Shown here in pieces: positions 59,120-61,482 of a stretch of 64,000 nucleotides of DNA. The notes under the pieces were generated by a model. That model was not told the origin of the DNA and made no database searches. It saw only the letters and a program-made list of their open reading frames with translations. Within the stretch, counting starts at the first letter, position 1. Every line of letters begins with the position of its first letter. The DNA lies in the NCBI GenBank assembly GCA_018267285.1, contig JAFDYU010000014.1:62001-126000 (forward strand), given 5' to 3'. The translations under genes were made by a program, and so were the position numbers. Origin of the DNA: Bacteroidota bacterium. Lineage in GTDB: Bacteria; Bacteroidota; Bacteroidia; Cytophagales; Cyclobacteriaceae.

Positions 59120-59494
59120 TTAACTGAGCACTATTGCTTCGTAGGCTTCATTCAATTTTCTATCGAATGTCCACAGGGATAAATTGTGTTTCAGTACCGC
59201 TGATAAAATATAACTATCAATCAGCCCAACTCCTTTATTGATCAATTTATACTTACTCGAATTCTTGCCTGCTTCTATAAATAATCCAATTTCATCTACT
59301 TTGGGCAAATGGGCCCAAAATTCAAGAATCAACTTTTCTTCACTTTCATTTTTGATGCCTTGAAGCAATTCCCCAAATACACAACTCAGTGCAATTACTT
59401 CATTATTCTCAATCAAAATTTCAAGTTTGTGAGAAAGTTGACGATCGGATTGGCGAAGGAAATCAATCCATACTGACGTGTCGACCAATAGCAT
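59120..59494 (-). CDS. vapC: VapC-type PIN-domain toxin
   Basis: A 124-residue PIN nuclease, likely an RNase toxin. The four acidic active-site residues are in place: Asp5 (VDTSVW), Glu42 (GELLQG), Asp93 (GLIDSYI) and Asp111 (TFDRKL). Length is typical for VapC. It follows its antitoxin gene by two bases on the same strand, which is the normal type II toxin-antitoxin order. It might be inactive in vivo; sequence shows no disruption. Its RNA target cannot be inferred. Confidence 0.88.
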   Translation of the reverse strand: MLLVDTSVWIDFLRQSDRQLSHKLEILIENNEVIALSCVFGELLQGIKNESEEKLILEFWAHLPKVDEIGLFIEAGKNSSKYKLINKGVGLIDSYILSAVLKHNLSLWTFDRKLNEAYEAIVLS

Positions 59495-59496
59495 TA

Positions 59497-59709
59497 CTAT
59501 TCGCGGTTAGCTTTTCGAATGCCCGTTGCATTAAAACCTTTTGTAAACTCAAATGGATTTCCTTTCAATTTTTTGATTGCTTTTCTTAACCGTTGTCGGT
59601 GAATATAATCGACCAATGCAATTTGCAGGCTTTCGGTAATGTTTTTTCCACCAGACAATTTCCGCACCTCGTTTATCATTTCTTCGGGCAACAGGGCTGT
59701 TACTTTCAT
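59497..59709 (-). CDS. vapB: Ribbon-helix-helix-type antitoxin
   Basis: A 70-residue protein that begins with a ribbon-helix-helix signature (MKVTALLPEEMINEVRKLS, then ITESLQIALVDYIHRQ) and ends in a polar tail that would wrap the PIN toxin. It lies two bases before vapC, so they should be one operon. An inverted repeat covering its promoter region may be its own operator. Naming as vapB is by partnership with the PIN toxin rather than close similarity to a named subfamily. Confidence 0.82.
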   Translation of the reverse strand: MKVTALLPEEMINEVRKLSGGKNITESLQIALVDYIHRQRLRKAIKKLKGNPFEFTKGFNATGIRKANRE

Positions 59710-59806: not shown

Positions 59807-61482
59807 ATGGACAATTTTGTGGTTTCTGCCCGAAAGTATCGCCCGCTCGGCTTTGACGAAGTGGTTGGGCAAGAACACATCACCACAACACTTAAAAATG
59901 CCATCGACAACAATAAATTAGCTCAAGCACTTTTATTTTGCGGCCCTCGGGGTGTGGGCAAAACTACCTGCGCTCGCATTGTAGCACGATTGATCAATGG
60001 TTTTGAAGAAAGGGCCGAAGTCAATTCGCTCAATATTTTCGAGCTCGATGCGGCTTCCAATAATTCGGTTGAAGATATCCGGAATCTTATCGACCAGGTT
60101 CGTTATCCACCGCAGTTTGGCAAGTTCAAGGTTTATATCATAGACGAGGTACACATGCTTTCGAACGCAGCCTTCAATGCGTTTTTAAAGACGTTGGAAG
60201 AACCGCCCGCGTATGCCATCTTTATTTTGGCAACCACCGAAAAGCACAAAGTTATCCCCACCATTTTGTCGCGCTGCCAGATTTTTGATTTCAACCGTAT
60301 CCAGGTTTCGGATATTGCGCGTCAGCTGAAAAAAATTGCGGAACGCGAAAGCATTCAAACTGAAGACGAAGCCCTGCACCTGATTGCCCAAAAAGCAGAT
60401 GGCGCTCTGCGCGATGGACTTTCCATTTTTGATTTGATGGTGACTTTCTCATCCGGCAACAAAGTCACCTTCACCGATGTGCTCAATAATTTGCACATCC
60501 TCGATTACGATTATTATTTTAAAATGGTAGACGGCCTGCTGGCCGAAAATTCTGCGGGCCCTTTATTGTTGCTTGACGAAATTTTGAAAAAAGGATTTGA
60601 CGGGCAGAACTTTATCACCGGCCTTGGTGAGCACCTGCGCAATCTTTTGGTATCGCAAGACGCCCGCACGGTCAATTTGATGGAAGTACCCGACAACATC
60701 AAGCAAAAATATTTGGCACAGGCGCAAGCGGCACAGCCTTCGCTCCTGCTTTCGTGGTTAAACATTGCCAGCACCTGCGACATCAATTACAAAGCAAGTA
60801 AAAACCAACGTTTGCTCGTTGAACTGGCGCTTATGAAAATGGCTTACCTAAACGCCACGTTAACCGTAAACAGCAACTCTTCTTCAGAAGCAGGATTAAA
60901 AAAAAAATTGAATTAGAACCGGAGCCTTCGATTTCCACTCCTTCTGATCTGCTCAAAACCGAGCCTGTCGATATTCCAAAAAATCAAATCACAGAAGCAA
61001 CAACAGCATCGGTCAAAACCACGCCCTCTTCCAGGCCAAAAGCCACACTCAACCTCAACGCAATTTTAAAAGCAAAAGAGATTGCCCCCGAAGCGCTGCC
61101 GCAAATTGAGGAACCCGTTGATGTGCGGCCGCTGAGCGATGCCCAACTGCGCGAAGCGTGGTCTGATTTTGCAAAACAGCGCAAACATCAGTTGGCAGAA
61201 TTCCATTTATTGAGCCGCACCGTGGAGGTGGATGGCTCGGTGGTTACGGTGGCACTTGCCAATTCTGTTGAAGAACCTTTGCTGCAGTCTATGCTGCCCG
61301 ACTTGCTCACCTATTTGAGAAACCGCCTGAGCAACCCCACCATTCAAGTAGAAAGTATTTTGCAAAAAGAAGAAGTGAACCGAATTGCGTACACCAACAA
61401 AGAAAAGCTTGACCTGCTCGTTTCCAAGAATCCGGTAATCAAAGAATTAAAAGATAGGTTGGGGTTGGACCCGGACTTTTAG
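59807..61482 (+). CDS. dnaX: DNA polymerase III subunit tau/gamma, needing a -1 (or +1 nucleotide) frameshift for full length
   Basis: Clamp-loader ATPase. The ATG at 59807 is preferred over an in-frame TTG three codons earlier. The zero frame runs to TAG at 60914-60916 and gives a 369-residue gamma-like product ending KKKLN. The ATPase has GPRGVGKTT, ELDAASNNSV, IIDEVHMLS and ILSRCQIFDF. A run of ten A (60898-60907) precedes the stop; the tau-specific part continues in the -1 frame from 60907 to 61482 (IELEPEP... to LGLDPDF), about 558 residues in total. The usual four-cysteine zinc module between CARIVARLING and NSLNIFELD is missing. Slippage or frameshifting may be programmed, but a homopolymer error is also possible. 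Confidence 0.9.
60898..60916 (+). promoter_or_regulatory. dnaX A10 slippery run and zero-frame stop
   Basis: TTA AAA AAA AAA TTG AAT TAG: ten A in a row (60898-60907), then the TAG at 60914. The run includes the -1 slippery heptamer A AAA AAA in the right register. It would also suit polymerase slippage adding one A. A weak AGGA lies just upstream (60893-60895 region) and no strong downstream hairpin is obvious. Confidence 0.7.

Follow-up and report, generated by a model that had tools for sequence, protein, structure and literature searches.

Organization of the dnaX locus

The window, i.e. the whole 64-kb stretch of DNA analysed here, contains a dnaX gene that is distributed over two open reading frames (ORFs) meeting at a run of ten A's (A10; Table 1). 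Read from the ATG, the zero frame ends with the codons TTA AAA AAA AAA TTG AAT TAG, and the +1 frame closes one codon after the run. The ATG was picked as start because the match to the profile PRK14971 begins at residue 4 of the ORF opened by TTG. The first part of the gene matched TIGR02397 with 374.2 bits (cut-off 250) as well as positions 1-370 of PRK14971, and Pfam identified the clamp-loader domains in it. The second part, located in the -1 frame, matched positions 444-612 of PRK14971 (E = 6e-20), and a Pfam search with this part gave no significant match. As both ORFs match the same PRK14971 model they are pieces of one DnaX, the product combining the clamp-loader ATPase N-terminal part with the PRK14971-type C-terminal part of this family, and arithmetic from the sequence gives a predicted tau of 558 aa. 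The best solved chains, which we take to be from E. coli, are named DNA polymerase III subunit gamma/tau (E about 7e-58). Frames, stop codon and profile match thus agree with the initial annotation, which had let the A10 end the zero frame of dnaX before the tau part and had the tau C-terminal frame resume from 60907 in the -1 frame and run to 61482.

Table 1. Features at the dnaX locus and its upstream neighbour (positions in the window)
Feature	Position	Strand	Basis
PIN-domain protein	59120..59709	-	Pfam
dnaX zero frame, gamma-like DnaX, 369 aa	59807..60916	+	ATG to TAG; domain and profile matches
Putative slippery A10 run, just past the clamp-loader domains	60898..60907	+	sequence; kept in relatives
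tau C-terminal part, -1 frame	60907..61482	+	open 191 codons, TAG 61480-61482; PRK14971 match; dN < dS
TGA in third (+1) frame, would be met by transcripts with 9 or 12 A's	60909..60911	+	read directly
TAG, zero-frame stop, predicted gamma end	60914..60916	+	sequence

The run in dnaX is the sole run of A or T of at least ten nucleotides in the window; genome-wide, with both strands searched, A10 gave 48 overlapping matches, which by hand count correspond to 34 separate runs in 3.33 Mb. Rfam returned two matches for positions 60600-61400, both far under their cut-offs. The gene for a PIN-domain protein adjoins dnaX, and upstream of it lies a gene for a 70-aa partner without Pfam match; the two look like a toxin-antitoxin pair of the VapBC type. 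The four-cysteine motif C-x6-12-CxxCxxC, which we take to be the zinc module of DnaX, was searched for in the region corresponding to 59807-60200 of the window and was absent in 50 of 50 testable loci of the genus as well as in 66 of 173 loci from other Bacteroidia.

Two-ORF dnaX genes with poly-A were described in 2013 by Antonov et al. (PMC3711429), who found 10 A's in nine of 17 genes and proposed transcriptional realignment. The window gene shares the features of that type, a -1 transition at poly-A at the DNA level with tau in the second ORF, and since the A9 case of Thermus had also been published earlier, it belongs to a kind already described. The available passages of PMC3711429 deal with split genes, the text naming three with shorter runs (Chloroherpeton and two Chlorobium) and a figure giving the nine with 10 A's. 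Beyond these, we observed a run of the same length also in Bacteroidia genes without a split and among relatives that differ in frame, and a search of the open-access literature (titles, abstract openings and passages) retrieved no report of A10 in unsplit Bacteroidia dnaX.

Conservation of the run and mobility of the tau frame

The initial annotation had considered a homopolymer miscall as alternative to a functional run and had suggested comparing the run across close relatives. Our genus sample consisted of 58 genomes (that of the window and 57 others), and 53 loci were analysed; G001, G009, G020 and G049 gave weak matches only and were left out, as was G010, whose dnaX pieces were not included. 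A9 or longer was counted as a run, and the A8 loci L041 (genus), L055 and L089 were scored as being without one. A run of A9-A11 is located at the junction in 52 of the 53 loci and is exactly A10 in 48, all 52 runs having the same phase. The codon at the start of the run is TTA or GTA in each of the 52 loci, the background being 11% for TTA among Leu codons and 26% for GTA among Val codons. The tau part is in the -1 frame in 50 loci, so that the transition is kept in 50 of 53, in the zero frame in L032 (A9) and in the +1 frame in L040 (A9). In the remaining locus, L041, an N precedes A8 and the frame is open; an altered flank is common to L041 and L032, indicating that the return to an open frame is apparently real. 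In comparisons of the tau part with four congeners dN was 0.20-0.33, whereas dS was 2.6 in one case and had reached saturation in the other three, and thus the tau part looks constrained.

The conservation of run, phase and split within the genus makes it very unlikely that the A10 is a sequencing error. Homopolymers are error-prone, the run of L041 contains an N, and L040 and L164 are one A shorter than their near kin, all of which could point to a miscall or a disabling mutation in a gene whose true form is one open frame. However, 48 congeneric loci with exactly A10 and 50 with the same split come from independent assemblies, and the low dN of the tau part argues against a disabled gene, leaving this explanation with next to no probability. 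Assembly errors may nevertheless account for single cases, namely the A9 loci with tau in the +1 frame (L040 and L164) and an inserted base in L186. In the latter an extra base directly precedes an intact A10, as compared to L194 and L205, and tau is in the +1 frame; the insertion is either real or an assembly error.

Across the class, unsplit genes have the same run as well, which widens the picture drawn from the window gene by the initial annotation. Of 173 loci from other Bacteroidia 153 carry A9-A11, 125 of them exactly A10, so that in the whole class the run is found at the junction in 205 of 226 loci, with exactly A10 in 173. Outside the class, where 42 loci were hand-picked to spread over families, 21 have a run (11 A9, 10 A10). 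No run of at least nine A's was present in 20 of the 173 and 21 of the 42 loci, respectively. All 30 class genomes with coordinates that had no locus yet were added, L179 and L180 were removed as duplicates, and metagenome-assembled genomes titled just Bacteroidetes or Bacteroidota were assumed to belong to the class. The loci are related and the counts are non-independent, and hence no p-values are given. Elsewhere in the 226 Bacteroidia dnaX genes at least nine consecutive A's were found three times in the N-terminal part (222,732 nt) and ten times in the tau part (124,155 nt).

Among the named loci, i.e. the best 80 of at least 594, every locus from Sphingobacteriaceae (6), Flavobacteriaceae (18), Weeksellaceae (3), Chitinophagaceae (3), Saprospiraceae (2), Hymenobacteraceae (4) and Cesiribacteraceae (1) has the run, those labelled Bacteroidales are divided into nine with and nine without it (18 in total), and two further loci without run bear no order label. 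High GC content does not abolish the run, which is kept in eight of nine non-genus Bacteroidia loci with a GC of at least 0.55; in the 17 run-bearing loci with such a GC, from the class and outside, AAA constitutes 31% of the Lys codons upstream.

The phase of the run and the frame of tau, in contrast, vary outside the genus. The run is found in three phases in other Bacteroidia (80, 51 and 22 loci), and in these 153 loci tau is in the zero frame in 89, in the -1 frame in 60 and in the +1 frame in three, one being ambiguous. In at least 14 pairs of loci with N-terminal identities of 80.7-98%, two of the 14 listed being from outside the class, the tau frame differs while A9-A11 is kept in both members. 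Seven of the 14 pairs have exactly A10 in both members, indicating that the frame was changed elsewhere than in the run. A quick tree of 223 loci required at least 25 changes between continuous and split genes; its support is low, with 71 of the 220 inner branches being starred and 78 open. In one genus outside the class, L270 and L271 have N-terminal parts that are 95.7% identical and combine A10 with tau frame 0 and A9 with tau frame -1, respectively.

Run length might also vary heritably at the DNA level within a population, toggling tau on and off. Long homopolymers do mutate, and the quick tree shows at least 25 changes of run length, which would fit such phase variation. The length is the same in 48 of 53 genus loci, however, the near pairs with exact A10 in both members differ in frame all the same, and dnaX is expected to be essential. 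We consider phase variation very improbable.

Stop codons, RNA folding and the probable mode of slippage

Directly behind the run both frames that do not encode tau are shut within five codons in all 52 loci of the genus, in 108 of 152 loci from other Bacteroidia and in 12 of 21 loci outside the class, as compared to 9%, 10% and 5%, respectively, at other points of the tau part. The window gene thus shows the Thermus-type arrangement, an A-run of at least nine with near stops in both non-tau frames. When the sequences were redrawn synonymously, double closure was expected in 23.4 of the split genus loci and observed in 50 of 50; in other Bacteroidia it was observed in 60 of 89 (18.7 expected) and 45 of 60 (15.0 expected), and outside the class in 7 of 11 (1.3 expected) and 5 of 10 (1.2 expected). 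The +1 frame alone was closed in 62 of 89 (34.5 expected) and 47 of 60 (31.4 expected) loci from other Bacteroidia, and outside the class in 7 of 11 (3.9 expected) and 8 of 10 (4.1 expected). As a stop in the +1 frame is not needed for -1 ribosomal shifting, this closure favours slippage.

The corresponding stop in the genus was dropped as an argument for slippage: the amino acids of tau alone force it (50 of 50 observed, 48.1 expected) and it is therefore uninformative.

Folding of the 70 nt downstream of the run gave a median z of -0.16 for 50 genus loci, as compared to -0.24 for a control 150 nt further, and of -0.30 for the 153 loci of other Bacteroidia (control -0.53), the z values being derived from mononucleotide shuffles and from structures that leave out pseudoknots. 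These foldings of the genus loci revealed no downstream stimulatory hairpin of the E. coli type. The E. coli-type heptamer A_AAA_AAG is absent as well, since T follows the A10, and an in-frame A_AAA_AAA is present instead.

This heptamer bears on the question whether tau is made by programmed -1 ribosomal frameshifting at A_AAA_AAA within a transcript that keeps its 10 A's. Such shifting is possible as every A10 holds an in-frame A_AAA_AAN heptamer, and the direction is -1 in 50 of the 52 run-bearing genus loci. E. coli dnaX employs A_AAA_AAG, and A_AAA_AAA is also shift-prone, but far less (PMC5009743). In some genus loci a purine stretch resembling GAGGGA is visible by eye ahead of the run; judged likewise by eye, this stretch is unconserved in the genus. 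The heptamer, moreover, does not require ten A's, the same kind of run is combined with tau in the zero frame in 89 and in the +1 frame in three of the 153 other Bacteroidia loci, the +1 frame is shut in excess outside the genus, and downstream folding shows no signal. We thus regard ribosomal frameshifting as unlikely.

The retention of the run despite changes of the tau frame, the double closure, the excess of stops in the +1 frame and the lack of a downstream folding signal favour slippage of RNA polymerase, and programmed slippage at the A10 probably determines the ratio of gamma to tau in the clamp loader. Polymerase slippage, the formation of both proteins and the existence of a set ratio between them are inferred from the sequence comparisons. 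RNA polymerase would slip on the A10, yielding mRNAs that differ in their number of A's. With 10 (or 13) A's an mRNA would be read to the TAG, giving gamma of about 369 aa, and with 9 or 12 A's translation would reach the TGA after the run, giving nearly the same protein with 367 or 368 aa; mRNAs with 11 (or 8 or 14) A's would reach the tau frame and yield tau of about 558 aa. The proposal of the initial annotation that a 369-residue gamma-like form and a tau form arise via a slip at the A-run is supported in this respect, with two qualifications, namely that the slip is likely made by RNA polymerase, not by the ribosome, and that it is tau, not gamma, that would need it here.

The arrangement resembles dnaX of Thermus thermophilus, where gamma and tau stem from one gene with an A9 run, transcriptional slippage and stops in both other frames (PMC5009743, PMC1088944), and where the RNA:DNA hybrid comprises 9-10 bp, which is about the length of the run (PMC5009743). 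In Thermus the zero frame encodes tau and the slip is required for gamma, whereas in the window gene it would be required for tau; at an efficiency near 50% the two products can exchange roles through the change of one nucleotide (PMC5009743, PMC1088944). E. coli dnaX, where -1 ribosomal frameshifting at A6G is stimulated by a Shine-Dalgarno-like element and a hairpin (PMC5009743, PMC3711429), likewise gives two proteins per gene, as predicted here, with the short one being the clamp-loader part. The window gene differs from it in having no folding signal, an A10 followed by T instead of A6G, and the short form in the zero frame.

The importance of the short gamma form was controversial in E. 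coli (PMC5009743). The run in 205 of 226 Bacteroidia loci, maintained through frame changes and high GC, argues that two DnaX forms are under selection. Split dnaX genes in Bacteroidia should not be dismissed as frameshifted pseudogenes, and unsplit ones may conceal a second product.

An in-frame UAG in a Bacteroidales clade

A protein search among the relatives of G338 identified a Bacteroidales clade without A-run. In all 24 loci (L129, L169 and L276-L297) an in-frame TAG is located right after the clamp-loader domains, at position 2788 in L129 and 3599 in L169. The frame beyond it is open for 186-254 codons in 23 of 24 loci; in L296 it has 29 codons and the +1 frame 187. The tau part of the window matched the post-TAG frame of the two loci searched by tblastn, L129 (E = 2e-7) and L169 (E = 3e-5), and dN was lower than dS for the post-TAG part in eight of eight pairs tried.

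The TAG is followed by ATW GCN AGR (ATWGCNAGR) in 23 of 24 loci; an alignment comprised 22 of the 24. The 12-mer TAGATWGCAAGR occurs almost exclusively at dnaX, with 26 matches in 23 genomes, 22 at dnaX and four elsewhere (positions compared by hand), as compared to 11 matches for its reversed control; in dnaX of G338 it differs by one base. By eye, a short GC-rich inverted repeat follows the TAG in many loci, but folding of individual sequences gave structures that vary from locus to locus. None of 395 class genomes yielded a match to a 27-nt pattern of the element at up to three mismatches, and Rfam detected nothing at the gathering cut-off in L129, L130 and L169.

TAG ends 55 of 235 ORFs of at least 150 codons in this clade, a list that includes chance ORFs and in which up to 20 cases are dnaX itself, and TAG thus seems to terminate other genes still. 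ARAGORN detected only tRNA-Met genes and no suppressor tRNA in 20 stretches of about 8-20 kb from the clade. Taken from the sequences, these features suggest programmed UAG readthrough at the gamma/tau junction as a candidate mechanism in this clade, termination with re-initiation being a possible alternative. A search of the open-access literature found no case of stop-codon readthrough making gamma and tau.

Taken together, the A10 may be an ancient switch that works by polymerase slippage and is shared by the Bacteroidia and part of the phylum. Because slippage scrambles the frame anyway, the tau frame would drift almost freely (0, -1, +1) while run and stops stay; in one Bacteroidales clade, programmed readthrough of an in-frame UAG followed by a conserved element would have taken the place of the switch. 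We give this evolutionary reading an even chance.

Two further loci without A-run, L130 (at about 3650) and L303, have a dnaX that ends early and a long open +1 frame of 259 and 207 codons, respectively, and share a AGGCAATC stretch shortly ahead of the stop.
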